Below, piece by piece: positions 3,419 through 36,005 of a stretch of 64,000 nt of DNA. The stretch comes from Alphaproteobacteria bacterium. Its GTDB lineage: Bacteria; Pseudomonadota; Alphaproteobacteria; Micropepsales; Micropepsaceae. Under the pieces are notes generated by a model that made no database searches, was not told where the DNA came from, and saw only the letters and a program-made list of their open reading frames with translations. The stretch lies in contig JAHFQC010000011.1 of NCBI GenBank assembly GCA_023259375.1, positions 1 through 64,000 of the forward strand, given 5' to 3'. The first letter of the stretch is position 1; each line of letters starts with the position of its first letter. The position numbers and the translations under genes are program-made.

Positions 3419-3533
3419 GGCATCCTCCAACGGTTGAAGGCGGCGCCATTCTACACCCGACGGCAAATACTTTCCTCCCCTGCGGAGCACTTACCGCAAA
3501 GGCGCTCGATTTCGGATAGCGGGGGAGGAACGA

Positions 3534-4607: not shown

Positions 4608-4898
4608 GGCGACCGTCCTTGAGCAGCCGGGATATCCTAGGAAACGGCGGCTAATTCCGCGTTAAGGGTTCGCCGCGGCGGCTGGCCGGCCTGTGCCGCA
4701 CCCAAAGAGCGCTCGCGGACGCGCGGAAACTGCCTTTTCCACGACATAAGTAGTACTACCAACAGACTGCGAAAATGCCGGTCTCTTCATTGTTGGCTCT
4801 GACAGTCTTGCGATAGATAGAACGTTTCTTTACCGCCCCCTCTTACCGTCATCAAGGAATGCCACCGGTCTCGACCGGTTCGGCCTGGGAGACACGGA

Positions 4899-13185: not shown

Positions 13186-14409
13186 GTGAACTCGTCGCGC
13201 CCCAAATCAGACAAGCCGCTTTCGGCGGCCGAAGCCCTGCACCTTCTGGAGCAGCATGCCCGCCAGTCGCAGGACGTCTTGGCGTCCCGCGCCGATGCCG
13301 GTCCTGATGTTCTCAATTACCTCGCCGAGAATGGCGCCTCCGCCACCCGGCGCGCGGTTGCCGCCAATCCCGCGACACCGGTCGAGACCAACTGGTATCT
13401 GGCCGACGACATCGACAAGAATGTGCGCAAGGCACTGGCCGGCAAGATCGGCCACCTGTTTCCCGGCCTTTTGGCCGACGAAGAAAAGCACTTACGCGAC
13501 CTGACCATCGCCACCCTGGAAAAACTGGCGCGCGACGAGGTGTCGGAAGTGCGTGCCATCCTCGCCGAAGAAATCAAGATCCACGACTGCGTGCCCAAGC
13601 CGGTGATCGAGGCGCTGGCCAACGACGCCGACCCCAAGGTGGCGCTGCCGGTGATCGAGTTCTCGCCGCTGCTCGACGATCGCGATCTGATCGGCCTCAT
13701 CGTGGCAACGCGCGCGTCGAGCATTCTGTCGGCGGTGGCGCGCCGCAAGCATCTCTCGGGCGATGTCTCCGAAGCAGTGGCGACGACCCTCGACATCGAT
13801 GCGGTGGCGGCCTTGCTCGCCAATACCGATGCGGCGATCCGCACCAAGACGCTCGACAAGATCATCAGCCAGGCGGCGGAAGTGGCCGAATGGCATGCCC
13901 CGCTGGTGGTTCGCGCCGATCTGTCCAAGAGCGCCATCCGGCGGCTGGCCTCGTTCGTCGGCAGCGCCTTGATCGACGCTTTGGCGGCGCGTTCGGGGCT
14001 CGACGAACCGACGCGGACCCTGCTCAAATCCAAGCTGGACGAGCGCCGCCGCACCGAAGCGGCCGCCGAAGCCGCGGTGGTGGAAGCGGCCCGCAAGGCC
14101 GGCACGCTCAACGAAGCTTTCGTTGCTGAAGCGGTGGAAGAATGCCGCAAGGAGACCGTGGTCAAGGCCCTCGCCGTGCTCGGCAAAACCGACGAGGCCA
14201 CGGTGCGGCGGGTACTCGACAGCGGTTCCGCCAAAGGCGCGACTGCCCTGGTCTGGCGCGCGGGCCTTTCGATGCGCGTCGCCTTCAAGCTGCAGACCCA
14301 GGTGATGCGCCTGTCCGGCCCCGACCTCCTCGCAGCCCGCCGCGGCATCGACTTTCCGCTGACCGAGGACGAGATGCGCTGGCACCTGGGGTATTTCGGG
14401 ATCACGTGA
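13186..14409 (+). CDS. DUF2336 domain protein
   Basis: A 407-residue, wholly helical protein of the alphaproteobacterial DUF2336 type, with HEAT-like repeats such as NYLAENGASATRRAVAANP and RDEVSEVRAILAEEIK through the first 230 residues. A charged ERRRTEAAAEAAVVEAARKA helix sits near residue 290, and the ending is DFPLTEDEMRWHLGYFGI. There are no membrane spans. The GTG start is favoured by CGGAG 5 bases upstream; an ATG 47 codons earlier gives an N-terminus that does not look like protein. DUF2336 proteins have no settled function, though some lie near cell-cycle or signalling genes. It ends about 220 bases before tRNA-Gly, the island junction. Confidence 0.82.
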   Translation: MNSSRPKSDKPLSAAEALHLLEQHARQSQDVLASRADAGPDVLNYLAENGASATRRAVAANPATPVETNWYLADDIDKNVRKALAGKIGHLFPGLLADEEKHLRDLTIATLEKLARDEVSEVRAILAEEIKIHDCVPKPVIEALANDADPKVALPVIEFSPLLDDRDLIGLIVATRASSILSAVARRKHLSGDVSEAVATTLDIDAVAALLANTDAAIRTKTLDKIISQAAEVAEWHAPLVVRADLSKSAIRRLASFVGSALIDALAARSGLDEPTRTLLKSKLDERRRTEAAAEAAVVEAARKAGTLNEAFVAEAVEECRKETVVKALAVLGKTDEATVRRVLDSGSAKGATALVWRAGLSMRVAFKLQTQVMRLSGPDLLAARRGIDFPLTEDEMRWHLGYFGIT

Positions 14410-14626: not shown

Positions 14627-14700
14627 GCGGGCGTAGTTCAATGGTAGAACGGCAGCTTCCCAAGCTGCATACGAGGGTTCGATTCCCTTCGCCCGCTCCA
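14627..14700 (+). tRNA. tRNA-Gly, anticodon CCC
   Basis: Complete cloverleaf. Acceptor arms are gcgggcg and cgcccgc, followed by the discriminator t and an encoded CCA (14698-14700). The anticodon stem gcagc/gctgc encloses the loop ttcccaa, reading GGG codons. The T arm is gagggttcgattccctt. It is close to the classical bacterial glycine tRNA for GGG. Its 3' half is the integration site of the island. Confidence 0.97.
14654..14700 (+). repeat. attL: 3' end of tRNA-Gly, 47-bp direct repeat
   Basis: From the anticodon arm to CCA, this stretch is identical over 47 bases to 35,689-35,735. The flanks differ immediately on both sides, as expected for site-specific insertion that restores the tRNA. 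Confidence 0.95.
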
Positions 14701-14830: not shown

Positions 14831-15976
14831 CTAAGCTGTCGAGCGTCCAGATAATGAACTCGGCTTGAATTTTAGCCGAAAGACTAGATCGAGTTCTCCG
14901 TCTCGCAGTTCCAGCCCCGTCACAAGACCGTGCTCTTCTGCCTTTTTGAAGGTGAGTTTGGCACGATCCGATACATCAAGGCGTCCATATCGGAGCGGTA
15001 CATTTATATAGGCTAATCTATCGGCTAAAATTGCCCTAAATGAACGCCAACGCAAAAACCTCAGCTCCCTAAATGAACACCTACGCAAATACCGCAGCCG
15101 ATCTAAATGCATTTCCTCGTTGCGCGCCGCACGATCACAGAACTCATCGAGAGAAATGGTCTCAAAATCCCTAAAGTCGACCAGCCACGCGAATTCACGA
15201 GCACACTCACGTCTAGAACTCAACCGGTCGGAATAATCTTCGATTGCCACCCCAAACTGATCAATGCGGTATTTTATGACGAGCGAGAATACCCCAATCA
15301 GCACTCCGAATAACCCAATGCAGGCGGCCAACATCTTTGCTATGCGTTTTGCACTTTGGCGTTGAAGTGTCTCTACCATTTGCATTTTCAGTGCGAATTC
15401 TTTTTCGCTAACCGCCGGTTGCGCAAGCGTCCCTGAGGCCGTCTTCACGGCATTTGGGCTATCAGAATTTTGTTTCTGAGACTTGGGGGCGTCCAACAAT
15501 CCCTGCTCTGCAGCCTGGAAATCCTTCACTGAAGAGATTGGAAATCCCAGGCCCATTGGGATGTCAAAAATTCTGTCCGCTTCGCTATAGAATGCAGCAA
15601 CAAGCGCGGAAAAACCGGAAATAAATGTCGCAACACGGGCTAAGTGCTTTAGCCGAGATAGCTTTGCCGTGCCCCTCCTTTTAGTCTCTGCCTTAATTGT
15701 CTCCATCTCTTGGCGCGCTGTTTGTGTTGCCAGCACAGTCACCAAGGACGGTAATTGAGAACTGTACAGCGTCGCTAATGACTTGTGATCAATATGTTCC
15801 AGCGCAGTATTGCGTGCCTCGGTAAGTTTTATGAAGTTCTCGTCATCGCATTTGGAATCCCTATTGCTAGTGTCGGGATGAACCTGCTTTGCCCTGCTAC
15901 GATAAGCCTTATCAATATCAGCTGCGCTCGCATTTTGATCAATTCCGAGCATTTGATAGGCGTCCGTTATCTCCAT
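14831..15976 (-). CDS. Membrane-anchored J-domain (DnaJ-like) protein
   Basis: A 381-residue protein starting MEITDAYQMLGIDQNAS. Residues 1-70 form a J-domain with the HPD motif at 33-35 (QVHPDTSN), the element that stimulates Hsp70 ATPase. Two hydrophobic segments follow (about 112-130 and 215-236) around a soluble stretch of ~85 residues. The C-terminal ~140 residues are basic and soluble, with paired Arg-rich helices (LRYLRRCSFRELRFLRWRSF). It has no zinc finger or G/F region, so it is not a classical DnaJ. It follows hsdR by 57 bases on the same strand inside the island, suggesting it belongs to the restriction operon or is co-carried cargo. Its role is unknown. Confidence 0.8.
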   Translation of the reverse strand: MEITDAYQMLGIDQNASAADIDKAYRSRAKQVHPDTSNRDSKCDDENFIKLTEARNTALEHIDHKSLATLYSSQLPSLVTVLATQTARQEMETIKAETKRRGTAKLSRLKHLARVATFISGFSALVAAFYSEADRIFDIPMGLGFPISSVKDFQAAEQGLLDAPKSQKQNSDSPNAVKTASGTLAQPAVSEKEFALKMQMVETLQRQSAKRIAKMLAACIGLFGVLIGVFSLVIKYRIDQFGVAIEDYSDRLSSRRECAREFAWLVDFRDFETISLDEFCDRAARNEEMHLDRLRYLRRCSFRELRFLRWRSFRAILADRLAYINVPLRYGRLDVSDRAKLTFKKAEEHGLVTGLELRDGELDLVFRLKFKPSSLSGRSTA

Positions 15977-16033
15977 TTCCCCCTCCAGCGCTGCCCCCCG
16001 TTAAAAACTTCTGTGTGGAGAAACCCAGCGTAA

Positions 16034-18400
16034 TCACGCCGCCGGCTGATACAGATACTTCTGAAATCCGCAGAATGTCGCCCGGATTTCGTCCGGATCG
16101 CCTAGATCGTTGACCGCGTCGTCGATAGAGTCGTTGTACTTGAGCTGGAGCAGCGGGGTCAGCTTCTCGCTGTCCAGTTCCTCGACGCCCTGCTCGATAT
16201 AGTGGGACAGCACGAAGTCCAGGAAGACCTGCTGCTTGGTGCTGAAATGGGTGGTGATGATCACCTTGGCGCCTTGGGCACGCTCTTGCCGGGTGAGCGG
16301 TGGGACGGCGTAGGCGACATGGGCAAGAACATCGAACAGGTCGCTCTTCTCGGCGTCTATGATCTTCTGCATCTCGGCGAGCTGGTCGTGCCCGAAGCCC
16401 TTCTCCGCCAGTCCGGCAAGCAGTTTGGCGCGGGTGTCCGGATCGCTCCAGATCGCCCGTAGCTCGGCCTCGTTCTTGAAGAAGTCGGGCAGCTTACCGA
16501 ACAGCGTCTCCATGAACTGCTGGGCGGACATCGGCGTGCCGTCCGGGTGCCAGAAGCTGGTCACCATCATGCTTTGGATGTTTCGCATCTTGCCATCACC
16601 CAAACGGACCTTGATCTTGCCAGGACGGGGCGGCCTCGGGCCTGGCCCTGGCGGAGGTTCTCCAAAGCCTCCAGGAGGGCGTGGGGGAGGCGGTGGCTCA
16701 GGTTCCAAAGGCTCGCCATCCCATTCCGGGTCGTTGAAGTGGTGATGCGCCTTCACGAAATCGTAGATCGTGAAATAGTCCTTGCCCTCGTACAGCCGCG
16801 TGCCGCGCCCGATGATCTGCTTGAACTCGATCATGGAGTTGACCGGGCGCATCAGCACGATATTGCGGACGTTACGCGCATCTACCCCGGTGGAGAGTTT
16901 CTGCGAGGTCGTCAGAATAGTCGGGATGGTCTTCTCATTGTCCTGGAAGGCCCTCAGATGCTGGTTGCCGAGCGCGCCGTCATCCGCCGTTACCCGGTGG
17001 CAATAGTTCGGGTCCTTGCTCGTCTTCATCTGGTTGATCAGGTCGCGAACAATGAGCGCGTGGTCTTGGGTAGCGCAGAAAACCAGCGTCTTTTCCCGCT
17101 GATCGATAGCATCCATAAATATTCGAACGCGCGTCGCTTCGCGTTCCGTGATCTCGATGACCCGGTTGAAGTCGCGCTCCTCATAACGCTTCTTCTTGTC
17201 GACCTCACCTTCCTCGACCGTATCGTCCGGCGTGTAGACGTAGTCGTCGAGGGTCGTGGATATCTGGCGCACCTTGAACGGCGTCAGGAAGCCGTCGTTT
17301 ATGCCGTCCTTCAGCGAATAGGTGAACACCGGCTCGCCGAAATACTTGTAGGTATCAACGTTGTCCTTGCGCTTGGGCGTGGCGGTGAGGCCAACCTGCA
17401 CCGCAGGCGCGAAATATTCCAGAATATCCCGCCAGGAGCTTTCGTCGTTGGCGCCGCCGCGATGGCATTCGTCGATGACGATGAAATCAAAGAAATCCTT
17501 CGGGTAGGCGCCGAAATAAGGTGACGGCTTGCCGTCCTTTTCCGGGCCGCTCATGAAGGTCTGGAAGATCGTGAAGAACACATTCCCGTTCTTGGGCACC
17601 CGCTTCTTCTTGCGGATTTCGTCGGGTTCGATGCGGACCAGCGCGTCTTCGGCGAACGCCATGAACGAGGTGAAGTCGTTATAGGCTTGGTCGGCAAGAT
17701 TGTTGCGATCAGCCAGGAACAGGATGCGCGGGCGCCGGGACGGCTCGCCGCCCGATTTCCAATCGTTCAGGTTCCAGCGCGCCTGAAACAGCTTCCAGGC
17801 GATCTGGAACGCGATAGAGGTCTTGCCGGTCCCGGTAGCGAGGGTGAGCAGAACCCGGTCACTCCCGTCTACAATGGATTCCAGCACGCGATTGACCGCT
17901 AGCTCCTGATAATACCGAATTTCCCAGGAGCCGCTCTTATCCGGATAAGGAATGGCGGCGAAGCGGTCGCGCCAGGCGTTGGACACGGCGAAGGTGCGCT
18001 GCCACAGCTCGTCCGGAGTCGGAAACCGCGGCGTCTCGCCTTCGGTGCCCTCCTCCATGTCGATGCCATAGATGCCCTTCCCGTTGGTCGAATAGGTAAA
18101 GCGAACGGCGAGCTTACCGGCATAGGCTTTCGCCTGCCCGACGCCCTTGGTCAGCGGCTCTGTATCGGCCTTGGCCTCCACGACGGCGAGCGGCGTGTTG
18201 CGGTAGATCAGCAGGTAATCAGCGATATCGGCCTTGCCGCGCCGGCCATGACCTTCGAGGCGGCCCTGGGTGATGCGGTATTCCCGGGCGATCCGGCTAC
18301 CGTCAACAATGCCCCAACCCGCGTCTTTCAGCGCAGGATCGATCAGTTCGGCCCGTGTCTCGGCCTCGTTCAAGGACGCCCCCTCACAGCTCCCCGGCAA
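16034..18400 (-). CDS. hsdR: Type I restriction endonuclease subunit R
   Basis: A 788-residue motor/nuclease subunit. The N-terminal PD-(D/E)xK nuclease has D61 and VVEAKA (E75, K77). The superfamily 2 helicase shows Walker A ATGTGKT (188-194), DECH (310-313), a GLTATP motif and IIGRGTR. A Pro-rich linker (about 585-620) precedes the C-terminal helical domain, which would bind the methylase core. It cleaves unmethylated DNA after ATP-driven translocation, as part of an R2M2S1 complex. Its start overlaps the end of hsdS by 17 bases, showing translational coupling. All catalytic motifs are intact. Layout and length resemble the EcoEI-like class. Confidence 0.95.
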   Translation of the reverse strand: MPGSCEGASLNEAETRAELIDPALKDAGWGIVDGSRIAREYRITQGRLEGHGRRGKADIADYLLIYRNTPLAVVEAKADTEPLTKGVGQAKAYAGKLAVRFTYSTNGKGIYGIDMEEGTEGETPRFPTPDELWQRTFAVSNAWRDRFAAIPYPDKSGSWEIRYYQELAVNRVLESIVDGSDRVLLTLATGTGKTSIAFQIAWKLFQARWNLNDWKSGGEPSRRPRILFLADRNNLADQAYNDFTSFMAFAEDALVRIEPDEIRKKKRVPKNGNVFFTIFQTFMSGPEKDGKPSPYFGAYPKDFFDFIVIDECHRGGANDESSWRDILEYFAPAVQVGLTATPKRKDNVDTYKYFGEPVFTYSLKDGINDGFLTPFKVRQISTTLDDYVYTPDDTVEEGEVDKKKRYEERDFNRVIEITEREATRVRIFMDAIDQREKTLVFCATQDHALIVRDLINQMKTSKDPNYCHRVTADDGALGNQHLRAFQDNEKTIPTILTTSQKLSTGVDARNVRNIVLMRPVNSMIEFKQIIGRGTRLYEGKDYFTIYDFVKAHHHFNDPEWDGEPLEPEPPPPPRPPGGFGEPPPGPGPRPPRPGKIKVRLGDGKMRNIQSMMVTSFWHPDGTPMSAQQFMETLFGKLPDFFKNEAELRAIWSDPDTRAKLLAGLAEKGFGHDQLAEMQKIIDAEKSDLFDVLAHVAYAVPPLTRQERAQGAKVIITTHFSTKQQVFLDFVLSHYIEQGVEELDSEKLTPLLQLKYNDSIDDAVNDLGDPDEIRATFCGFQKYLYQPAA

Positions 18401-19583
18401 ACGCCTTATGCAGCAGCGATTTCTTCAATTCGTCAAGTGCGGCGAGTTTGCGGCTGTAGATGGCTTCGAGAGACAGACACTCAGCCTCGATCTCGACGAT
18501 CCTTTGGACCACCTTCTCCTGCTCCCCCGGTGATGGTGGGAAGAAAATGGGATAAGGCTCCAAAGTCTCCTTGGTTAGCCCGATTTGTCCCGCCGCTCGT
18601 TCCGAGTGATAGATGACATGTTGCAGGATACTGGGGTGCTTTAGGAAATAGTACAAAAAATCCTTCGTGATTTGTTGTTCGTCCGGGGCTGCTTTCATAA
18701 GCGCCACATTATAAGCGCCCTCTAATCCGCGCAAAATCTGAAACAGCGGCGGACCGTAACGTCCGATCATCACATCCGTCGTGCTACAAAACCTTCTGGC
18801 TTGGCTGCGAGGAATATAGACAATGTGATTATCGCTCTTGTAATCGCGAATCTGAATTAGCCGGATGTTCGTGGGCATTTTCGACTTTGAAAAAACTGAT
18901 TTTGGAGGTTGAGAACCTCCAATAAATTCGCAGACATCACCCAAGGTTTTCTCGACCCACTCTTCTTTTTGGCTGGTAAACGTCTCTTCCAGATAGCTGT
19001 TAAAAAGCGCGCGGCAGTTTTGGAGGTTCTTTTCGTCACTGGCCTTGGCAACAGCGATGTCCTTGAATGCCTCGTCGAGAATACCGACGATGCGCCACTG
19101 TTCAGATAACGAGGACGGAATTTCAGCGACAAAATCTTCAAGCTGCGTTTTTGTTATAGCCTGACGAGTGGCGCCTGCGTCACCAGTCAGCAGCAATCTG
19201 TCCTTGTACTGCGGAGCGCAAAGTAGATACCGGAGGAACTGGGGGACAAGCTGTTCTTTCCGACACCTCAAAATCGAAACGTGCTGATTGACCCGCGCGG
19301 GCAGAATATATTGTGGAACTAAACAGCAGCGAGCTATTGATGCTCCCGTAATATTAAAAAGCAGGTCGTCTGCTTCAACGACGACGTTCTTTAGAGCATC
19401 AGCCTGCTGGTCGTCTATGCGAGCCAAACCGTCATTATCAAAGCCATGGTCGTGGACATTCATGCTCCGAATGAGAGCAACACCTTCTTGCTTGTAAGCA
19501 GCAGAACCACCGAGAGGCGTCGCGCCACTACCAATTTTAGTGGTGACTGCGCCTAGTTTGCGATTTACCCAACCTGGCTTCAC
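18384..19583 (-). CDS. hsdS: Type I restriction-modification specificity subunit S
   Basis: A 399-residue protein with two target-recognition domains. TRD1 spans about residues 1-160, then a conserved helical spacer (IVGILDEAFKDIAVAKA), then TRD2 about 205-350, then a second spacer helix (VVQRIVEIEAECLSLEA, ending LLHKAFAGEL). The half sites cannot be predicted from the sequence. It overlaps hsdM by 4 bases (ATGA) and hsdR by 17. Base composition is lower in G+C than in hsdM and hsdR, as is common for S subunits that are swapped by recombination. Both TRDs look complete, so the subunit is probably functional. Confidence 0.93.
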   Translation of the reverse strand: MKPGWVNRKLGAVTTKIGSGATPLGGSAAYKQEGVALIRSMNVHDHGFDNDGLARIDDQQADALKNVVVEADDLLFNITGASIARCCLVPQYILPARVNQHVSILRCRKEQLVPQFLRYLLCAPQYKDRLLLTGDAGATRQAITKTQLEDFVAEIPSSLSEQWRIVGILDEAFKDIAVAKASDEKNLQNCRALFNSYLEETFTSQKEEWVEKTLGDVCEFIGGSQPPKSVFSKSKMPTNIRLIQIRDYKSDNHIVYIPRSQARRFCSTTDVMIGRYGPPLFQILRGLEGAYNVALMKAAPDEQQITKDFLYYFLKHPSILQHVIYHSERAAGQIGLTKETLEPYPIFFPPSPGEQEKVVQRIVEIEAECLSLEAIYSRKLAALDELKKSLLHKAFAGEL

Positions 19584-21031
19584 AGCAGTGCCCTGATGTT
19601 CGCCAGCACTTCGGCGCTCTCGGTATCCAACGCGGCAATCTCGTCGAGGATTGCTTCAGGGCTGCGGTGGACGACGACTTCGCCGCCGTTCGGGTTCTTG
19701 ACCGATAGATCGAAGCTCGCCTGATCGATGGATTTATCGTCCAACGACCAGCTCTTGGGCGTATCCGCAAACGTCTTCTGCAGCCGGACGAATTCAGCCA
19801 AATCGTCGTCGTTCAGCGGATTGGTCTTGCCTAGGCTGCGGCCCGGATCGAGCTGGTAGTACCAGATCTTCCGTGTCGGGGCGCCTTTCTCGAAAAACAG
19901 CACCACCGTCTTCACGCCCGCGCCTTGGAAGGTGCCTTGCGGGCAATCGAGCACGGTGTGCAGGTTGCAGCTTTCGAGCAGCAACTTGCGCAGCGAGATG
20001 GACGCGTTGTCGGTGTTCGACAAGAACGTGTTCTTGATGACGATGGCGCCGCGCCCGCCCGCCTTCAACATCCGGATGAAGTGCTGGAGGAACAGAAACG
20101 CGGTCTCGCCGGTGCGGATCGGGAAGTTCTGCTGCACCTCCTTGCGTTCCTTGCCGCCGAATGGCGGATTGGCAAGGATCACGTCGAACCGGTCCTTTTC
20201 CTGGACGTCAGCCAGGTTCTCGGTCAGCGTGTTGGTGTGCAGGATGTTCGGCGCCTCGATGCCGTGCAGGATCATGTTCATGATCGCGATGACATAGGCG
20301 AGCGACTTCTTCTCTTTGCCGTAGAACGTTCGCTCCTGGAGGACGCGGGCATCCTTGGTGGAGAGCTTACCGGCCTTCAGATACTCGAAGCTCTCGCACA
20401 AGAACCCAGCCGAACCGCAGGCGCCGTCATAGATGCGTTCGCCGATCTTGGGCGCGGTCACTTGGATCATGGCGCGAATGAGCGGGCGCGGCGTGTAATA
20501 CTCGCCGCCATTGCGCCCGGCATTGCCCATATTGCGGATCTTGGCTTCGTAGAGGTGGGAAAGCTCGTGCTTTTCGGCCTGAGAGCCGAACTTCAGCGCA
20601 TCGACGGCATCGATGATCTCGCGCAGATTGTAACCAGAGGTAATCCGGTTCTTAATCTCGCCGAAGATCTCGCCAATCTTGTACTCGATGGTGGCGGCAC
20701 TTTCCGCCTTGGCCTTGAAGCCCTGCAGATATGGGAAGAGCTTGCCGTCGACGAACTCGATCAGGTCGTCGCCGGTCATGGCTTTGTTGTGGTCGATCTC
20801 GCCGTTCGCGTTCTTCGGCGCAGCCCAATTCCCCCAACGGTAGTCCGGAGAAAGAATGTAGGCGACCTTCTTGCCCTCCAGCTTGGCCTTGGTCTGGCGA
20901 TCGCGCTCCAGGCTATCGAGATAGCGCAGGAACAGGACCCACGAGGTCTGCTCGGTATAGTCCAGCTCGGTAGTACAGCCCGCCTCCTTCCGGAGGACGT
21001 CGTCGATGTTCTTGAAGGTCTGCTCAAACAT
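19580..21031 (-). CDS. hsdM: Type I restriction-modification DNA methyltransferase subunit M
   Basis: An N6-adenine methylase of 483 residues from the start used here. It has an N-terminal helical domain (MFEQTFKNIDDVLRKEAG), SAM motif I DGACGSAGF near residue 202 and the catalytic NPPF near residue 288. It modifies host DNA and is the core of the restriction complex. An ATG 10 codons upstream is also possible, but MFEQ..KNIDD is the usual N-terminus and AGGT lies before it. It is first in the operon hsdM-hsdS-hsdR. No toxin or anti-restriction gene is inserted. The integrase gene lies 120-150 bases upstream on the same strand. Confidence 0.93.
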   Translation of the reverse strand: MFEQTFKNIDDVLRKEAGCTTELDYTEQTSWVLFLRYLDSLERDRQTKAKLEGKKVAYILSPDYRWGNWAAPKNANGEIDHNKAMTGDDLIEFVDGKLFPYLQGFKAKAESAATIEYKIGEIFGEIKNRITSGYNLREIIDAVDALKFGSQAEKHELSHLYEAKIRNMGNAGRNGGEYYTPRPLIRAMIQVTAPKIGERIYDGACGSAGFLCESFEYLKAGKLSTKDARVLQERTFYGKEKKSLAYVIAIMNMILHGIEAPNILHTNTLTENLADVQEKDRFDVILANPPFGGKERKEVQQNFPIRTGETAFLFLQHFIRMLKAGGRGAIVIKNTFLSNTDNASISLRKLLLESCNLHTVLDCPQGTFQGAGVKTVVLFFEKGAPTRKIWYYQLDPGRSLGKTNPLNDDDLAEFVRLQKTFADTPKSWSLDDKSIDQASFDLSVKNPNGGEVVVHRSPEAILDEIAALDTESAEVLANIRALL

Positions 21032-21179
21032 GGGGACCTGACGCGTGGAATACGATGACATTGACCCAACCGACCCCGGACGACCACAGCCTCGCTGCGG
21101 CGCCCGTGGGAACCCAAATCACAATGGCCTGTGATAACCTAATTTGAGGAAAAATGGGCGAGCAGATGGCCGCGCGGGG

Positions 21180-30147: not shown

Positions 30148-30546
30148 TCATTCTGCTTTTTCTGACAGTTGCTCTGCTAGAGCGATAATGGTTTTCCGTA
30201 CCTTGGGATCTGTGATTCTCGAAAAGGCTAGACACAAGCGCCAACCATCCGCGCTGGCGATCATCTGTGAAATCTTTTGCATCGCCAGATCTCTATCGGA
30301 GACATCCTCGGCGGTCGCTTCCCGCTCTGGATAGAGGGCATAAACCGGGACCTGAAGAACGTCGGCCATCTCATAGAGACGACCAGCCCCAATCCTGTTC
30401 GTACCGTTCTCGTATTTCTGGATCTGCTGAAACGTTACGCCCAGTTCTTTTGCGAGGTCGGTTTGAGAAAGTCCAAGCGCTTTACGGTGTGTACGAACTC
30501 GCGCAGCGACGGCGATGTCGATCGCTCCGACCTGCTTGCCACCCAT
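30148..30546 (-). CDS. XRE-family transcriptional regulator (132 aa)
   Basis: A classical XRE helix-turn-helix at residues about 13-67: VRTHRKALGLSQTDLAKELG, then VTFQQIQKYENGTNRIGAGR, then LYEMADVLQVPVYALYP. The C-terminal ~55 residues are helical (ITDPKVRKTIIALAEQLSEK). This size and layout are common in alphaproteobacterial phage-like and stress regulators. GGAGG 7 bases upstream fixes the ATG used; an earlier ATG has none. It follows the 30,662-30,919 gene by 115 bases on the same strand. Targets unknown, but it is the most conventional repressor in the island. Confidence 0.9.
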   Translation of the reverse strand: MGGKQVGAIDIAVAARVRTHRKALGLSQTDLAKELGVTFQQIQKYENGTNRIGAGRLYEMADVLQVPVYALYPEREATAEDVSDRDLAMQKISQMIASADGWRLCLAFSRITDPKVRKTIIALAEQLSEKAE

Positions 30547-30661: not shown

Positions 30662-30919
30662 TTATGCACCAGGGCGCTTTCTTTTAGCCACACGCAGTTC
30701 CGGAGGTGAGACGTGGTCCACAACTCGCACTTCACTCTCAAGTGCAAAAAAGAAGAGCTCTAGTTCTTCCTCAGAAAGCTCATTGGCACGAGCAACGGCG
30801 TCAATCCACGCAATTCCCAGTAAATACGAAGTTTTTTCCCAACCAATGGAACGCGCCAGTTGATTGGCCTGATCGATATGGGAAATCAGCTCTTTCATTG
30901 GTGGCGATATGCTATCCAT
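30662..30919 (-). CDS. Small helical protein (85 aa)
   Basis: Starts MDSISPPMKELISHIDQANQ with GGAGAG about 8 bases upstream; a longer open frame upstream has no ribosome binding site. The sequence LARSIGWEKTSYLLGIAWID, followed by an acidic ELSEEELELFFFALESE helix, suggests an all-helical soluble protein with a basic tail. It precedes the XRE regulator on the same strand and may be cotranscribed. No known family; likely real because of its composition and signal. Confidence 0.6.
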   Translation of the reverse strand: MDSISPPMKELISHIDQANQLARSIGWEKTSYLLGIAWIDAVARANELSEEELELFFFALESEVRVVDHVSPPELRVAKRKRPGA

Positions 30920-31076: not shown

Positions 31077-32126
31077 CTAGAAGAACTCCTTGAAGCCCTC
31101 GAAAAGCTCGCCAATGGGAATGTCCTCAACGTGCGAAGGAAGATCGTTCGGGTGGATAAATTCGTCTCCGAACCAAGGATAGCGCTTGGTCGAAAACACA
31201 GCGATGAGCCAGTCGATTAACCGCCGCACACGAGGAAGCCTCGCAGCATCTGCATGGTACACAAGCCAGATGTCCTGACTGATCCTCAATTCCGGGATAT
31301 CAATGGGCACCAATTTTGTACCGATAGCGGGGGCATATGTCGGTAGAGCACCAATGCCGGCGCCACGAGCGATCATCCAATAGTGGGTTGTGCTGACATT
31401 CGTGCGAAACGCCACGGTTCCCACTTGCGGCGTATTAGGAAAGAGTTGCGCGTACATTTCCGCCGTCGTGATCTGATCGGATATCTGCAGAACGAGGTGG
31501 TGCTTCGCTAATTCCGAAATGCTCGTCGGGCAACCATGCATCGCGATATAGGACGGCGCGGCAAACAGCATCGCGTGCAGTCTGCCCACCCTGACGATTC
31601 GCAAGTCCTTCGTAGTTGGCTTGGTTATCTGGATACCGACATCAGTCTCCAGACGAAGGATGTCTGCGGGATGCATCGCACACCGTACATCAATGAGGAG
31701 TGATGGGTAGGCTTGGCGAAACTCCACCAAGCGTGGGGCTACCCAGAACGTACCCAAACCTTCCGTAATTCCGACGCGCACCTCGCCTTCCATCGAAACG
31801 CCGAGGTTTCGAACGCGCGCGATGTCTAGCGCGGCAGTTTCCATTCGCTGGGCTGTCTCAACAATGAGCTTACCCTCGGCGGTCAGCCGAACGCCATCAA
31901 CATGACGAGTTAGCAACGTTATACCGATCTCTCTTTCGAACTCTTCGATATGGCGCCGCAGAGTATTGGACGAAATGCCCATCGACTGAGACGCAGCGCG
32001 GAAACTGCCACCACGCACGACTTCGAGCAGAGAGCGGGCACCCTCCCAACTTCGCAATCGAGAATCAGGTGTCAACCCGAAGGCGTGTTCCATTTGTGGG
32101 TCACCCCGACCTCGAATCTTAGGCAT
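31077..32126 (-). CDS. LysR-family transcriptional regulator
   Basis: About 349 residues from the start used; other in-frame ATGs lie 4 codons earlier and 12 later. The N-terminal winged helix reads SLLEVVRGGSFRAASQSMGI, then SSNTLRRHIEEFEREIGITL, then LTRHVDGVRLTAEGK. The C-terminal periplasmic-binding-like effector domain begins near VRVGITEGLGTFWVAP. It is divergent from the GNAT-isochorismatase-PaaK operon with only about 50-65 bases between starts, the classic arrangement in which a LysR protein controls the opposing operon and itself. The ligand would be the operon's substrate or product. No other target is evident. Confidence 0.92.
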   Translation of the reverse strand: MPKIRGRGDPQMEHAFGLTPDSRLRSWEGARSLLEVVRGGSFRAASQSMGISSNTLRRHIEEFEREIGITLLTRHVDGVRLTAEGKLIVETAQRMETAALDIARVRNLGVSMEGEVRVGITEGLGTFWVAPRLVEFRQAYPSLLIDVRCAMHPADILRLETDVGIQITKPTTKDLRIVRVGRLHAMLFAAPSYIAMHGCPTSISELAKHHLVLQISDQITTAEMYAQLFPNTPQVGTVAFRTNVSTTHYWMIARGAGIGALPTYAPAIGTKLVPIDIPELRISQDIWLVYHADAARLPRVRRLIDWLIAVFSTKRYPWFGDEFIHPNDLPSHVEDIPIGELFEGFKEFF

Positions 32127-32192: not shown

Positions 32193-33428
32193 ATGACCAT
32201 CCAGCCAGTTGGCCTTGCCAGTAATTTCCATCTGGCGGAACGCCGGATCAGCCGAAATCACACCCTCGACGAACTCGACGCCAAACTTGGTCAGCGCACT
32301 GTCGTTTTCACGCCAACCGGAGAAGCTGTCGCCGACGTTGTCGCCGCCGCTGGGCGGGAAATCCGCGGGCTTGCTAGTGTTTCTGCAGTGAACCGCGTCC
32401 TCTCGCACAATCCGGATGCCTTGTGGGGTCTCGCCAGTCGAGAACGATACAATGTCGCGGAGCCTCGGGCAGAGGGACTAGTCGCTTACCTGATGCTCAA
32501 TGCCAAAGGCCTTCGCGCGCTCGGTGACGGAAACCTCAATCGCTCCGACCCTGATTTGGCGCTGGTGGCACGACAGAACGAACGCCCCGCCGGGATCTAT
32601 TGTTGGGCCATCTATGCGCCAGCGTTTCTGATGGGCGCGGTGCCGCTCGCCTATGAGAAGATCTGCATCCCGCGCTATGCCGGTATCAGCATCTACGCCT
32701 GGGCCGCAACAGCCGATGGGCACCGAATCTGCCAAACGCTCGGATTCACGCGAGGCGCCCCCCTGAAAGGAGATTTCGCGCCTCAGCTCTACTACTATCC
32801 CCGCGGCGAAGAACGCAAGGAGATGAACCCCACATACGATCGGTATCAACCCACGAGCAACGAACGCCGCGTGACGGTATCCGTCGCGCGCTCGTTTGAT
32901 GACTTGATGCGTATCGTCTCTCTCCGGAGTGCAGTCTACATCGCCGAACAAGAGTGCCCTTACGAAGAAGAATTCGACGGCAACGACCTCGCCGCAACCC
33001 ACCTCATCGGCTATGTCGGTAACGAGCCCGCAGGCTGTTTGCGGTTACGGTTTTTCGGCTCTTTCGCCAAAGTCGAGCGCCTCGCCGTGCGCCACGAATT
33101 TCGAAACACAAGACTTTCGTTCAAGCTCGTTCGCGCCGGGATCGACCTCTGCAGAGAGAAGGGTTATCGCCGGCTCTACGGCCATTCTCGCGCGGACCTT
33201 GTGAAGTTCTGGTCGATGTTCGGCTTTCGACCGGTTCCAGACCGGCCTCAATTCGCTTTTTCCGATGTCGCCTACGTGGAGATGGCACTCGACCTCGAGC
33301 TCGCTTCTGGAGCGCTCGCGATTGGCGAAAACCCATACCACCTACTTAGGCCGGAGGGGCGTTGGCACGAGAAGGGCATTCTCGAAAATTCCGCCTCGCG
33401 AGGCGTCCGCACGAATTCTGGGGAGTAG
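32193..33428 (+). CDS. Two-domain GNAT acyltransferase-like protein
   Basis: A 411-residue protein. The C-terminal half (about 220-370) is a GNAT domain: SFDDLMRIVSLRSAVYIAEQ, CPYEEEFDGNDLAATHLIGY, PAGCLRLRFFGSFAKVERLA and VRHEFRNTRLSFKLVRAG (acyl-CoA pyrophosphate loop region). The acidic EEFD segment resembles that of acyl-homoserine-lactone-type synthases. The N-terminal half ends YAGISIYAWAATADGHRICQ, then TLGFTRG, which looks like a second, degenerate GNAT. It would move an acyl group from CoA or a carrier to an amine. It is first in an operon of three, with 5 bases to the next gene. Substrate unknown. Confidence 0.75.
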   Translation: MTIQPVGLASNFHLAERRISRNHTLDELDAKLGQRTVVFTPTGEAVADVVAAAGREIRGLASVSAVNRVLSHNPDALWGLASRERYNVAEPRAEGLVAYLMLNAKGLRALGDGNLNRSDPDLALVARQNERPAGIYCWAIYAPAFLMGAVPLAYEKICIPRYAGISIYAWAATADGHRICQTLGFTRGAPLKGDFAPQLYYYPRGEERKEMNPTYDRYQPTSNERRVTVSVARSFDDLMRIVSLRSAVYIAEQECPYEEEFDGNDLAATHLIGYVGNEPAGCLRLRFFGSFAKVERLAVRHEFRNTRLSFKLVRAGIDLCREKGYRRLYGHSRADLVKFWSMFGFRPVPDRPQFAFSDVAYVEMALDLELASGALAIGENPYHLLRPEGRWHEKGILENSASRGVRTNSGE

Positions 33429-33433
33429 ATACC

Positions 33434-34075
33434 ATGACCTGCATGCCTGCTAGTTCTGCTTTTCAAAAATCGCTTCCGATATCGACACTAGTCCTGATCG
33501 ACATGTGCAAACCTAATCTTCCGCAAGGTCTCAAACGTGCACCCGGCGGAACCATCCTGCAGAATTGTCGCCGCGCGCTGTCTTTTGCGCGCCTGCATGG
33601 ATGGCGCGTCGCGCATGTCAGGAGCGAGCACGCTCTTTTGCCGGGAAGCGACCAATCGATCGCAGGCTTCGAGCCCGAGCGGATCGACCCGAAGTTCGAG
33701 CGAAGAGCGCTATCGTGCTATTCAAGCCCCTATTTCCAGTCCGTCATGCGGGAGACCGGTGGTTCTTACGTGCTCGCAGGCTTTCTTGGCGATGGCGGCG
33801 GACTTGCAACGCTCGCCGACACCCTTTTGTATGGAGACAGCGTAACTCTCCTCGCGGACGCCTCGCTCGATGAAGTATCGCGACGTGTCTTTTCCGAGCC
33901 CGTATTGAGCCTTCTCACCACCCATACAAGCTTGAGGTTCAATGTCGTTTCCACATCGGCTTGGCTTCGGGCGCTTGAGGGCATTGGCGCTGGCGCAATG
34001 ATGCGGACTTCGCGGACGGAAAAGCATGCAGCTCAACGCCAGCGCAGGATAGCGGGCGGCGAAGCTCATCCGTAA
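33434..34075 (+). CDS. Isochorismatase-fold protein lacking the catalytic cysteine
   Basis: A 213-residue protein. STLVLIDMCKPNLPQG supplies the conserved Asp, with HGWRVAHVRSEH and a C-terminal GFLGDGGGLATLADTLLYGD, then SVTLLADAS, in family order. In active isochorismatase-like hydrolases a cysteine occupies the GDGGG position, and here it is glycine. The protein is therefore probably a non-catalytic member or uses different chemistry. GGGGAG overlapping the end of the upstream gene sets the ATG. It sits between the GNAT and PaaK-like genes, whose products it may bind. The C-terminal 40 residues are basic and likely disordered. Confidence 0.72.
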   Translation: MTCMPASSAFQKSLPISTLVLIDMCKPNLPQGLKRAPGGTILQNCRRALSFARLHGWRVAHVRSEHALLPGSDQSIAGFEPERIDPKFERRALSCYSSPYFQSVMRETGGSYVLAGFLGDGGGLATLADTLLYGDSVTLLADASLDEVSRRVFSEPVLSLLTTHTSLRFNVVSTSAWLRALEGIGAGAMMRTSRTEKHAAQRQRRIAGGEAHP

Positions 34076-34142
34076 CCGATACACGACCAAACGCTGACAT
34101 TGCTTTTGGCGCCTGAATCGCCAACACCGGAAAGGGTCTCAT

Positions 34143-35534
34143 ATGGACCGGCTCGATATCGCCATCGAAAACATGCGCGCGCTGCATTATGCGCACTTCT
34201 GCAACATCATGCCCGAACTTGTGAATCGACTTTCCTGGTCGCACAAGAAAATCCATGAACATCAGATAGCGGCACTGAAATCGATGCTCCGCCATGCCAA
34301 GGCGCAGTCCCCCTGGCACGCAGAAAGACTCGCCGGCATAGATCCGGAAGCCATAACTCTTGCCGATCTGGCACAGATTCCGACCATGACCAAGGGCGAC
34401 CTTATGGAGCATTGGGATGATATCGTCACCGTGCCTGGCGCATCCCGCTCCGAAGCAGAGGCGGCCCTGAGAAACATGCGGGATCAGTTCTACATCTGGG
34501 GTGATAACACGCTTTTCACGTCAGGAGGGACCGGCGGGCGCCCTGGCATCTTCGTCTACGACTGGACATCATTGGCATTGAATTGGGGCGGCATGTGCCG
34601 GTCGATGGAGACCTATATTGCAACCTTGCCGCTCGCCAACGGGCACAAGCCCCGCCGCCTCCGACTGGCGGCTGTCGGTGCTGAACTCTCGGCCCATGGC
34701 TCCTTTGTCGTCGGAAGGGTCTTCTCGAATCCATTCAACCAAACACAGATGCTTTCGGGATGGCGATCGGTCGAGCAACTCATTCCGAAGCTGAATGCCG
34801 CGCAGCCCGACATCTTCTCCTGCTATCCCAACCTGATCCCGGCTCTGGCTGCTGCGGCTCAGGCGGGAGATCTGAAGATCACCCCCCTCCTCATCGCTTG
34901 CGGCGGCGAGCATTTTCCGGAATCCAGCCAGAAATTCGCCAAGGAGGCTTGGCCGGCCACGGACATACTCTCCTGTTGGGGGACCAGCGAGGCGGGCGGC
35001 ACGTTTCCGTGTCCACTTGGCGACGGCTTTCATATATCCGAGGACCTAGTCATCATCGAACCCGTTGATGAAACCGGGCAACCAGTGCAGCCGGGTGAGC
35101 GGTCGGCGGGAATTTACCTGACCAATCTGTACAACAAGGCCCTGCCCATCCTGCGGTACTATATCGACGACGTGTTCGAGCTTGATGACAAGCCGTGCGC
35201 CTGCGGCTGCATTCATAAAAAAGTGAAACAGGTCCATGGACGCGGCTTCGAGAAATTCCAGTACCGGAAGACGGTCGTCCATCCAGTGACGCTACAACTC
35301 GCCGTCTTGGAGCAGCCGCAGATCCTCGAATACCAGATCCGGCAAACGCCCAGCGGTGTCCACTTGAGCTATCGCAGCCAGGGCAATGCCGATGAGGGAC
35401 GCCTCCGGTGCAAGCTGCGGGAAGCGCTTTTGAGCTATGGCTTGGGCGAGCCCGACGTGGCGGTGGAACGAGTCGATCAACTGCATCGGACAACAGCCGG
35501 CAAGCTCAAACGGTTTGTGCCGCTTTTGGCGTAG
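34143..35534 (+). CDS. PaaK-like adenylate-forming (acyl-CoA ligase-type) enzyme
   Basis: A 463-residue ANL-superfamily enzyme of the phenylacetate-CoA ligase/F390-synthetase-like branch. The ATP loop TSGGTGGRPG is near residue 125, SCWGTSEAGG near 279, a Cys-rich turn (CACGC) near 357 and HGRGFEKF near 370. The C-terminal domain ends RTTAGKLKRFVPLL, where the lysine is the usual adenylation residue. It would activate an aromatic or fatty acid as acyl-AMP and pass it to CoA or an amine. Third in the operon behind the GNAT and isochorismatase-fold genes, it probably supplies the acyl donor. No carrier protein gene is seen. Confidence 0.85.
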   Translation: MDRLDIAIENMRALHYAHFCNIMPELVNRLSWSHKKIHEHQIAALKSMLRHAKAQSPWHAERLAGIDPEAITLADLAQIPTMTKGDLMEHWDDIVTVPGASRSEAEAALRNMRDQFYIWGDNTLFTSGGTGGRPGIFVYDWTSLALNWGGMCRSMETYIATLPLANGHKPRRLRLAAVGAELSAHGSFVVGRVFSNPFNQTQMLSGWRSVEQLIPKLNAAQPDIFSCYPNLIPALAAAAQAGDLKITPLLIACGGEHFPESSQKFAKEAWPATDILSCWGTSEAGGTFPCPLGDGFHISEDLVIIEPVDETGQPVQPGERSAGIYLTNLYNKALPILRYYIDDVFELDDKPCACGCIHKKVKQVHGRGFEKFQYRKTVVHPVTLQLAVLEQPQILEYQIRQTPSGVHLSYRSQGNADEGRLRCKLREALLSYGLGEPDVAVERVDQLHRTTAGKLKRFVPLLA

Positions 35535-35666: not shown

Positions 35667-36005
35667 TTGATCCGTATAAGGAAATTCGAGCTTCCCAAGC
35701 TGCATACGAGGGTTCGATTCCCTTCGCCCGCTCCAAGGCTCAACCAGGCACGGCAGGCCTTCGGATATTCGCAACAGCTACACTGCGGCAAACCGGGAAC
35801 AGTATTCCGCGGTCCCCGCCTCCACACCCACAGCGAGGCACGCGACCTCAATAATTGGCCTGCGTATTGGGACATTCTGTTTCATCGCCGCCCGCGTCGC
35901 CGCACCGCGAAGAAACTCGTGGCAAAAATCAAGAGCGGCCACCTCGATCCCGACGACACAGCTTGGCCGCTCGGCAATCACAAACCGCATCATTACTACT
36001 GGTAA
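35667..36005 (+). CDS. Small backbone protein with start altered at the island junction
   Basis: The C-terminal 50 residues (PAYWDILFHRRPRRRTAKKL, HLDPDDTAWPLGNHKPHHYY) read as a real basic small protein. The frame upstream contains only the attR repeat and no ATG or GTG; the first possible start is a TTG inside the island. The native start may have been lost or changed by the insertion. A perfect terminator follows directly after the stop, supporting expression. No function known. Confidence 0.45.
   Translation: MIRIRKFELPKLHTRVRFPSPAPRLNQARQAFGYSQQLHCGKPGTVFRGPRLHTHSEARDLNNWPAYWDILFHRRPRRRTAKKLVAKIKSGHLDPDDTAWPLGNHKPHHYYW
35689..35735 (+). repeat. attR: duplicated 47 bp of tRNA-Gly
   Basis: Exact copy of 14,654-14,700, ending in CCA. 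It lacks the 5' half of the tRNA, so it is the right attachment site of the island and not a second tRNA gene. Confidence 0.95.

Follow-up and report, generated by a model that had tools for sequence, protein, structure and literature searches.

The window, a 64,000-nucleotide stretch of alphaproteobacterial DNA (contig JAHFQC010000011.1), carries, on an island, one copy of a module conserved in Alphaproteobacteria. The module reads XRE–(small protein)–LysR divergent from GNAT–isochorismatase-like, and in this copy a PaaK-like enzyme has been added. The module is widespread but unnamed, and no description of it was found in the open-licence PubMed Central literature. As a whole, PaaK-like enzyme included, it may both produce and detect a small signal molecule.

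A conserved module at the end of an island

Three intact open reading frames on the plus strand encode a two-domain GNAT protein of 411 aa (32193–33428), a protein of 213 aa with an isochorismatase/cysteine-hydrolase fold (33434–34075) and, after a gap of 67 bases, a PaaK-like adenylate-forming enzyme of 463 aa predicted to activate aryl or acyl acids (34143–35534). As a reading of this DNA from sequence only had described, the trio is divergent from a LysR-type regulator gene on the minus strand (31077–32126). Its likely start at 32126, chosen by comparison with the relative in locus L021, leaves 66 bases to the GNAT start, and an alternative start at 32093 leaves 99; no inverted repeat was found in this gap. 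The LysR protein matches the Pfam substrate domain with 102 bits (cut-off 28) and the helix-turn-helix domain with 49.4 bits (cut-off 26.6). Two further module members, overlooked in the sequence-only reading, lie on the minus strand on the far side of the LysR gene: a small protein of 85 aa (30662–30919), predicted by eye to be helical, and, beyond it, an XRE/Cro-type regulator of the broad PraR-like family (30148–30546; HTH_3 56.4 bits).

The trio had also been placed at the right end of an integrated island, and the boundaries agree with this. The island is inserted at a tRNA-Gly(CCC) gene on the plus strand (14627–14700) and bounded by two 47-bp copies of its 3′ end, the left one being the last 47 bases of the gene itself (14654–14700) and the right, att-like one (35689–35735) lying 154 bases behind the PaaK-like gene. 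Between the two repeats sits a gene that, judged by eye, encodes a tyrosine integrase; this name, like those of the resolvase, HsdM/HsdS, DnaJ, lnt and cytochrome oxidase genes and the polyketide synthase (PKS) of locus L023, was read from the first residues. The idea of defence cargo was rejected: PADLOC gave no match for the GNAT, isochorismatase-like, PaaK-like or small protein, the matches of the XRE protein reflect shared helix-turn-helix domains, and the LysR protein has one weak CARF match (E 0.007).

To compare loci, we merged overlapping order-level and named sets by a 100-residue key into 97 non-redundant GNAT loci, excluding GNAT proteins shorter than 250 aa, split and single-domain ones among them. 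The 80 named loci are the best 80 of 537 confirmed, so the sample leans to close relatives, and because the rows are related species, locus counts do not represent independent events. Genes were predicted with a codon-based caller, which overlooked the window's isochorismatase-like gene and ran some genes together, and families were tallied as single-linkage blastp clusters.

In this sample, whose named part is the best 80 of 537, a LysR gene is adjacent to and divergent from the GNAT gene in 72 of 97 loci (a contig edge cuts off a further 4), making LysR, not a LuxR receptor, the usual partner; an isochorismatase-like gene follows in 65 (64 tallied plus the window), and a gene of up to 130 aa lies behind the operon on the same strand in 59, a tally that accepts any gene of that size and is not a homology count. 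XRE genes are enriched, occurring within six genes in 43/97 loci (named part again the best 80 of 537) and directly behind LysR in 32, compared with 10 of 928 genes lying at least four genes away. Among the named loci (best 80 of 537), relatives of the module are found in Bradyrhizobium, Methylobacterium, Microvirga, Pseudolabrys, Tardiphaga and others, and M. fujisawaense DSM 5686 carries a copy (L135), GNAT–LysR pair included. One related group has a PAS_5 protein as the GNAT partner. Across evenly drawn genomes of the class, 14 of 192 gave a match to the GNAT profile at E 1e-30. Only the two that belong to the window's genus matched over its whole length; in the remaining 12 the match was confined to the C-domain.

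The GNAT and isochorismatase-like proteins

The GNAT protein scores 37.3 bits against its Pfam family (cut-off 20.7). The EEFD motif noticed earlier in its acyltransferase domain, here the C-domain (residues about 213–370), extends to EEFDGND and is invariant except for F/Y in all 43 aligned sequences, window copy included. YjcF, ElaA and SACOL1063 are the nearest solved relatives of this domain by sequence and fold; their solved chains are single-domain, whereas the window GNAT is fused to an N-domain and tied to LysR and isochorismatase-like proteins. In the fold search, SACOL1063 (Z 18.9), YjcF and ElaA rank above FeeM (2g0b; Z 13.8, rmsd 2.4 over 143 residues), and the FeeM match does not discriminate, since the fold is that of GNATs in general. 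FeeM is a GNAT-fold N-acyl amino acid synthase that uses carrier-bound acyl groups; beyond the shared fold it differs from the window GNAT, which scores 18.2 bits against the FeeM family PF21926, under the cut-off of 27, and whose activator is PaaK-like. The description of the protein as a double GNAT is borne out, in both sequence and fold, for the C-half. For the N-half it was dropped: this half looks GNAT-like by eye in predicted secondary structure alone. Nothing significant came from Pfam (8 N-domain sequences; best unrelated E 0.07) or from profile comparisons with LuxI, the C-half, RimI and mixed GNATs (for the last, E 0.012 over 32 columns).

The C-domain profile matches a set of 11 LuxI proteins with E 3.4e-7 over 126 columns, whereas two control sets, both smaller than the 43-sequence C-domain set, match LuxI with E 0.015 over 52 columns (RimI, 17 sequences) and E 0.0026 over 92 columns (mixed GNATs, up to 9). 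By this profile comparison, the C-domain is closer to LuxI synthases than the two control sets are. It also matches RimI (E 4.6e-7) and mixed GNATs (E 1.3e-7) as strongly as LuxI, over fewer columns. In the LuxI alignment, R245, Y249, EEFDGND, R284/286 and ER295-296 of the GNAT fall in regions matching R24, F28, W34, D46/D49, R69, E99 and R102 (LuxI alignment numbering), which we take to be the catalytic residues; no conserved Trp was seen in the corresponding GNAT region. The GNAT had no match to PF00765 (Autoind_synth) at E up to 1, and none was found in its own genome.

The isochorismatase-like protein scores 29.3 bits against PF00857 (cut-off 27), and its nearest folds are cysteine hydrolases and amidases (one cysteine hydrolase superposes with Z 18.5 and an rmsd of 2.4 over 160 residues). 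It had been called cysteine-less, which is true of the window copy but not of the family, where 31 of 35 aligned sequences keep the nucleophile; judged from this alignment, the absence is a loss in the window copy. The catalytic Asp is present in the window copy and in 32/35 sequences. At the column that we presume to hold the triad Lys, none of the 35 has one, and 6 have Lys one column earlier.

The main rival to the signalling proposal set out below is LysR-run detoxification, in which LysR would detect a toxic amine or antibiotic, the GNAT would acetylate it, the isochorismatase-fold protein would hydrolyse it, a transporter would export it and the PaaK-like enzyme would handle an aryl acid arising in the process. 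The nearest folds of the two proteins, acetyltransferases and cysteine hydrolases/amidases, are in keeping with such a role. Genes of six transporter clusters (MFS11 17, RND9 14, MHS37 7 and others) occur within six genes of 58/97 GNAT loci, a count that has no background rate and whose named part is the best 80 of 537; MFS genes lie directly behind the module in Bradyrhizobium and Pseudolabrys loci; in Methylobacterium, MFP/RND genes are found behind it. Because of this count, which also speaks against a signal, we graded detoxification higher. Another point against a signal is that 84 of 97 loci (named part the best 80 of 537) have no gene of the two acid-activating ligase clusters described below within four genes. 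The missing triad Lys and the Cys-less window copy argue against it, however, as does the CoA loop, whose first glycine, in what we presume to be the usual motif, is kept in just 7 of 43 GNAT sequences, though 28 of them have Ala or Gly at its end. Detoxification also gives the XRE and small proteins no evident role and leaves aside the pairing of the GNAT with acid activators and acyl carrier protein (ACP). We regard it as rather unlikely; if true, the module would still be an uncharacterised and widespread resistance module.

Pairing with acid-activating enzymes

The PaaK-like protein retains the ATP loop SGGTGG, the SE motif, Asp D343 and the GK lysine, which we take to be the adenylate-forming motifs, the last of them catalytic; the earlier description of an adenylate-forming enzyme with an intact ATP loop is thus borne out. 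It matches solved PaaK-like ligases from E 5e-14, its AMP-binding Pfam score is just 20.2 (cut-off 29.9), and its top NCBIfam model is a DVU_1553-family CoA ligase at 92.5 bits (cut-off 300). Being PaaK-like, the enzyme could belong to ordinary aromatic (phenylacetate) degradation, a context that the sequence-only reading had itself set against its proposal. Its score for TIGR02155 (PaaK), however, is 38.3 bits compared with a cut-off of 646, and inspection by eye of the gene neighbourhoods read around its relatives revealed no cluster for aromatic degradation. We rejected this assignment as highly improbable.

Relatives of the PaaK-like protein at >50% identity were found in one genus only, and among the evenly drawn class genomes it was recovered at E 1e-60 only in its own (1/192). 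In 3 of 11 places in the genus (the window, L017 and L021), the gene stands behind GNAT–isochorismatase-like on the same strand. The intervening gap measures 67 bases in the window and about 350 in L021; in L017 it is about 560 and contains a small gene. In a fourth place it adjoins a LysR gene, and in seven it is not next to the module; in L023, a relative lies inside a cluster that reads by eye as a PKS. The trio had been read as one set, and usual separation of its genes had been named as counting against this. By the neighbourhood counts, we rejected the trio as the unit: the PaaK-like gene is mostly found apart, and the pair that recurs is GNAT and isochorismatase-like.

Acid-activating genes recur near the GNAT. 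Two clusters, the PaaK-like one and one AMP-ligase family, are represented within four genes of 13/97 loci, window included, although these 13 are not independent; the background is 4 of 928 genes lying at least four genes away. Loci L074 and L075 read GNAT–isochorismatase-like–ACP–AMP-ligase, with a ligase of the other cluster in the place of PaaK. GNAT and AMP-ligase occur together with a condensation protein in eight loci, six of which also have a phosphopantetheinyl transferase (PPTase) and ACP. In L020, PaaK is beside a FeeM-like single GNAT and a LysR gene. The GNAT tree (93 of the 97 proteins, those under 330 aa left out; long branches) pairs the window with L021 (100/99), whereas the PaaK tree places L021 in a clade without the window (97/98). 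Because the two trees disagree, the pairing has arisen, or been renewed, more than once. PaaK is an occasional addition, and on this phylogenetic evidence it joined, or was exchanged in, the module more than once. This repeated joining, together with other acid activators in its place, suggests that the GNAT consumes activated acids.

The PaaK-like gene might instead be a bystander that arrived with the end of the island and has no functional tie to the GNAT–isochorismatase-like pair. Its 67-base gap, its frequent location away from the module and its relative in the PKS-like cluster would fit. Yet it holds the same strand and side in three loci despite the discordant trees, and a ligase of the other cluster fills the same place in L074 and L075; we consider a bystander improbable. 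A small amide natural-product cluster, antimicrobial or other, with LysR acting only as pathway regulator and no signalling, would agree with the condensation protein, ACP and PPTase beside the same GNAT family, with its occurrence beside type III PKS genes and with the PaaK relative in L023. By eye, however, most named module copies (best 80 of 537) show no further biosynthetic gene, and the conserved partners are regulators. A pathway of this kind seems to us unlikely.

Regulators, small protein and known signalling systems

An amide, made as signal or product and sensed by the LysR protein, as first proposed from the sequence, can fairly be inferred, helped by the LuxI-like C-domain; the acid activators near 13 of the GNAT loci agree with it. 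In the mechanism that we favour, the PaaK-like enzyme would adenylate a carboxylic acid, probably an aryl acid, and form a CoA or carrier thioester; the LuxI/FeeM-like C-domain would then form an amide by transferring the acyl group onto an amine. LysR would sense the amide or a precursor and drive the divergent operon, while the small protein, by analogy with CinS and PraR in Rhizobium, might bind the XRE regulator and lift its action. Taken as a whole, this LuxI/FeeM-like amide-forming circuit with a LysR sensor and a CinI–CinS–PraR-like layout is a tentative proposal, possible but short of probable. Weighing against it are the missing PF00765 match, a fold nearer to ordinary GNATs than to FeeM, the equally strong profile matches to RimI and mixed GNATs, the lost Cys of the isochorismatase-like copy and, in the genome itself, a LysR–XRE–small protein set that lacks a GNAT. 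A doubtful extension is that it represents an undescribed class of alphaproteobacterial cell–cell signalling, island-mobile and combining a LuxI-like two-domain GNAT with a new N-domain, a LysR receptor, a small anti-repressor acting on XRE and acyl choice through exchangeable activators.

Both Bradyrhizobium and Methylobacterium live in partnership with plants, and the signalling for which they are best known is of the LuxI/LuxR type. If the signalling reading is true, these systems would be joined by a second class of signal, perceived through LysR, and the exchangeable ligase would offer a handle on signal identity. In PqsA–PqsR (MvfR) of Pseudomonas, too, a LysR-type protein is the receptor, and an aryl-CoA ligase begins the synthesis of its signal; the chemistry differs from that of the window module, and the system is not known to include a GNAT.

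CinI–CinS–PraR of Rhizobium leguminosarum is reported to consist of an acyl-transferring synthase of a signal, a co-encoded small protein and a repressor of the XRE type (PMC4149787). The window module likewise combines an acyl-transferring enzyme, a small protein and an XRE regulator; the likeness is one of layout, as CinI is a LuxI synthase with a LuxR receptor, whereas the window has a YjcF/ElaA-like two-domain GNAT and LysR. For M. fujisawaense DSM 5686, MmaI–MmaP–PraR has been described, a LuxI–small-protein–PraR path in which a 59-aa protein encoded behind the synthase binds PraR, in a strain where gene deletion works (PMC10790750). This is the strain that carries GNAT module L135, at a separate locus; unlike the window module, MmaI–MmaP–PraR is LuxI/LuxR based and has no isochorismatase-like protein.

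For the PraR described in M. fujisawaense we used the gene next to metK. It is 35% identical to the window XRE over residues 1–68 only (68 residues), and of the five genes in that genome that match the window XRE it does so least well, four others being closer. This recheck weakened a closer PraR assignment, based on a 48% identical own-genome gene beside an lnt-like gene, and because the match is distant, we graded our best explanation and its extension to a new signalling class lower. The small protein is homologous to one encoded just behind the isochorismatase-like protein in Bradyrhizobium, Pseudolabrys and others (hhalign E 4.5e-12 for a set of five including the window protein; 0/60 column shuffles as high), whereas membership of one family was not detectable between the Methylobacterium and Bradyrhizobium small proteins (25/60 shuffles as high). 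Scored against column shuffles, it has no detectable relation to two MmaP proteins and rises only just above the shuffles with a 62-aa protein behind a Ciceribacter LuxI, leaving its candidacy as an MmaP or CinS-like homologue unsupported. The genome itself holds seven further matches to the window XRE (32–52% identity) and a LysR–XRE–small protein set without a GNAT.

The gene block and its island

Three intact genes lie together on the plus strand of the window, encoding a GNAT protein (32193–33428), an isochorismatase-like protein (ISO; 33434–34075) and a PaaK-like enzyme (34143–35534). A LysR gene (31077–32126, minus strand) diverges from the GNAT gene across a gap of 66 bases, and behind it on the same strand follow a small gene of 85 aa (30662–30919) and an XRE regulator (30148–30546). 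This arrangement (hereafter, without the PaaK-like gene, the module) is flanked by repeats of tRNA-Gly: the tRNA gene lies at 14627–14700, and a 47-bp repeat of its end at 35689–35735, 154 bases past the gene block. Between the repeats lie a type I restriction set, with HsdR confirmed by PADLOC and its remaining genes named by eye, and a gene reading as a tyrosine integrase. Because of these elements, the integrated island proposed by the sequence-only reading holds. The island stretch 14831–21061 also contains a DnaJ-domain-like protein, recognized by eye, with the complete-looking restriction set.

Elsewhere, the module of locus L021 adjoins Trb-like conjugation genes (TrbL was matched, the remainder named by eye). 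The contig of L018 carries at its end a copy, 52 bp long, of the island's tRNA-Gly repeat. By contrast, the PaaK-bearing module of L017 (genome G062) lies ~1.4 kb from a gene (3474–4622) that is a 45% homologue of window gene 13186–14409, which sits beside the tRNA-Gly. Yet the window module sits inside the island repeats.

A recurrent module with a two-domain GNAT protein

The GNAT protein occurs in 44 of the 96 genomes of the order at E 1e-12, with up to five matches per genome, and in at least 537 confirmed stretches of a named genome collection. Merging duplicates from the order and the best 80 collection stretches, with GNAT of at least 250 aa, left 97 loci from related species, so that counts are not independent. 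A divergent LysR is present in 72 of these loci, with 4 more at a contig edge; the ISO gene in 64, or 65 counting the window, where the gene caller missed it; and a small gene, counted as any of up to 130 aa behind the operon, in 59. XRE lies within six genes in 43 loci and directly behind LysR in 32. Among 928 background genes at least four genes away, the XRE cluster appeared 10 times, the LysR cluster 6 times and two ligase clusters 4 times.

The C-terminal GNAT domain is recognized by Pfam (37.3 bits; cut-off 20.7), and its closest solved relatives by profile search are YjcF, SACOL1063 and ElaA. The AlphaFold model (mean pLDDT 82.9) matches the same folds (SACOL1063, Z 18.9, 1.6 Å over 143 residues; YjcF, 16.8; ElaA, 16.4), followed by the tandem clavulanate-synthesis GNAT (14.7, for a single aligned domain), carrier-bound SbzI (14.0) and FeeM (13.8). 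Residues E259, E260, D262–D265, R284, R286, K293, E295, R296 and R304 are invariant in 43/43 sequences. The usual GNAT CoA loop reads R-x-x-G-x-G/A; the first Gly is kept in 7/43 sequences and Ala or Gly at the last position in 28/43, these positions being Arg and Ser in the window protein. The proposed double GNAT thus stands for the C-domain by Pfam and fold, while the N-domain gave no significant Pfam match (eight sequences tried) or profile match (RimI, E 0.085; mixed GNATs, 0.012; LuxI, 0.54; the C-domain, 0.37) and has a predicted secondary structure that is GNAT-like by eye alone. At L099 and L101, the halves are separate adjacent genes divergent from LysR, so either they became fused in the window protein or a longer gene was split at these two loci. 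A minimal plasmid-borne relative of the module, in Aureimonas sp. AU20 (L029, 8796–11598), comprises LysR, a single-domain GNAT, two proteins of 87 and 116 aa and a helix-turn-helix gene, and adjoins an exopolysaccharide cluster.

The match between the C-domain profile and a profile of 11 LuxI proteins (alignment A7) covers 126 columns at E 3.4e-7. Two control families drawn from the same genomes, in smaller alignments, matched LuxI far more weakly (E 0.015 over 52 columns for 17 RimI sequences; 0.0026 over 92 for at most 9 mixed GNATs). The C-domain also matched RimI (E 4.6e-7, 75 columns) and mixed GNATs (1.3e-7, 86 columns), and because of these matches and controls we place it, by sequence, between ordinary GNATs and LuxI. 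Judged by Pfam PF00765, which matched neither the GNAT protein nor anything in its own genome, it is not a LuxI.

ISO has a predicted isochorismatase fold (Z 18.5, 2.4 Å, 160 residues). In an alignment of 35 sequences, 32 retain the Asp and 31 the Cys; the window copy has Gly for Cys and is in this sense cysteine-less. Lys is present in 0/35 at what we take to be the PhzD-type triad column and one column earlier in 6/35, and a Ser–Cys pair is near-invariant (Ser 35/35, Cys 33/35). ISO may be an altered hydrolase or a binding protein.

Possible acid activation and efflux

The PaaK-like enzyme retains the SE motif, Asp, catalytic Lys and, as the sequence-only reading had it, an intact ATP loop. 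Its nearest known structures are PaaK-like ligases, and its scores against the named PaaK and F390 models fall far short of their cut-offs. Across the 96 genomes, the enzyme occurs at 11 places in the window's genus, ten of them at 54–68% identity to the eleventh, the window itself, and gives a single match outside it (34%, same family). Recurrence of the trio was borne out for the GNAT–ISO pair (65/97); of the 11 places, the window, L021 and, with the small gene interposed, L017 have the full set together on one strand. PaaK adjoins LysR at L018, where a GNAT start lies at the contig end; is separated from GNAT by genes reading as oxidase genes at L022; and lies beside LysR and a different, FeeM-like GNAT at L020 (Pfam FeeM 26.2 bits, cut-off 27). 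No GNAT match was found at L023, which reads as a PKS cluster, or at L019, L024, L025 and L026; two of these five are contigs of 4–6 kb.

In the GNAT tree, the window and L021 pair (100/99) and L017 falls in a different supported clade; in the PaaK tree, L021 groups with L018–L020 and L022 (97/98), whereas the window's partner is L017 (87/79, not marked as supported). From these differing groupings, PaaK entered the module, or was swapped within it, more than once, and we regard this as the strongest indication that the GNAT would use activated acids. At 13/97 GNAT loci, a member of the two ligase clusters occurs within four genes. Besides PaaK, an acyl-CoA-ligase-like enzyme follows GNAT–ISO–ACP at L074 and L075, and lies next to GNAT, with condensation and PAS_5 proteins, at eight loci.

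These eight (L069, L070, L071, L076, L078, L079, L080 and L083) form an unnamed biosynthetic cluster, with GNAT, AMP-ligase, PAS_5 and a stand-alone condensation protein in 8/8 and an efflux set in most; PPTase with ACP, and MFS, each occur in 6/8, and the other loci either lack these genes or are truncated at a contig end. At L068 (2588–9321), L072 and L077, a divergent-branch GNAT adjoins a DpgA-like type III PKS (its family assigned by a test at L068 alone), two more conserved genes and an EmrB-cluster exporter.

Beyond the established gene facts, we propose a likely scheme of reactions, sensing and regulation. The PaaK-like enzyme would convert an acid through its adenylate to a CoA or carrier thioester, from which the GNAT would form an amide; LysR would sense the amide and drive the operon, and the small protein would act on the XRE regulator. 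The main competing explanation is detoxification with efflux. In loci of Bradyrhizobium, Pseudolabrys and Methylobacterium, the module is followed by MFS or RND genes, and by raw count 58/97 GNAT loci have a member of one of six transporter clusters no more than six genes away. The domains are of known kinds; their combination and the N-domain are unnamed in the libraries searched. Our searches of open-licence PubMed Central papers gave no description of the module, in line with the earlier impression that no pathway with exactly this set was described.

The small protein and the XRE regulator

Five small proteins (window, L017, L021, L022 and L028) have 16 homologues, from Bradyrhizobium, Pseudolabrys and other taxa, that are encoded behind the ISO gene (E 4.5e-12, 0/60 shuffles). 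Kinship with MmaP or a CinS-like protein was expected and is unsupported by shuffle-tested profile comparisons. When the 16-protein set was compared with two MmaP proteins, identified by their position, 2/60 shuffles scored as high; against one Ciceribacter protein behind a LuxI, 0/60 did (E 0.0084; score 16.5, shuffle maximum 15.5). For the five-protein set, 14/60 shuffles scored as high in each comparison. No relation of the Methylobacterium small protein to the 16 was detected (25/60). Because this kinship was not found, we regard the parallel with the known CinI–CinS–PraR (PMC4149787) and MmaI–MmaP–PraR (PMC10790750) circuits as one of layout.

The window XRE has five relatives in M. fujisawaense, the best at 42–44%. 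The weakest (35% over residues 1–68) is the one next to metK, whose position marks it as the published PraR (PMC10790750), so the window protein belongs to the broad PraR-like family and is no more than a candidate PraR in function. The window's own genome holds eight such XRE genes, the window's included. Three of the eight, on contigs C1, C17 and C154, adjoin or lie one gene from a LysR of the module family, and one copy (48%) lies beside a gene reading as lnt. On C154 (L264, 3417–5410), XRE–LysR diverges from a 101-aa small protein next to genes reading as cytochrome oxidase; there is no GNAT, so that this locus has just the regulatory half of the module.
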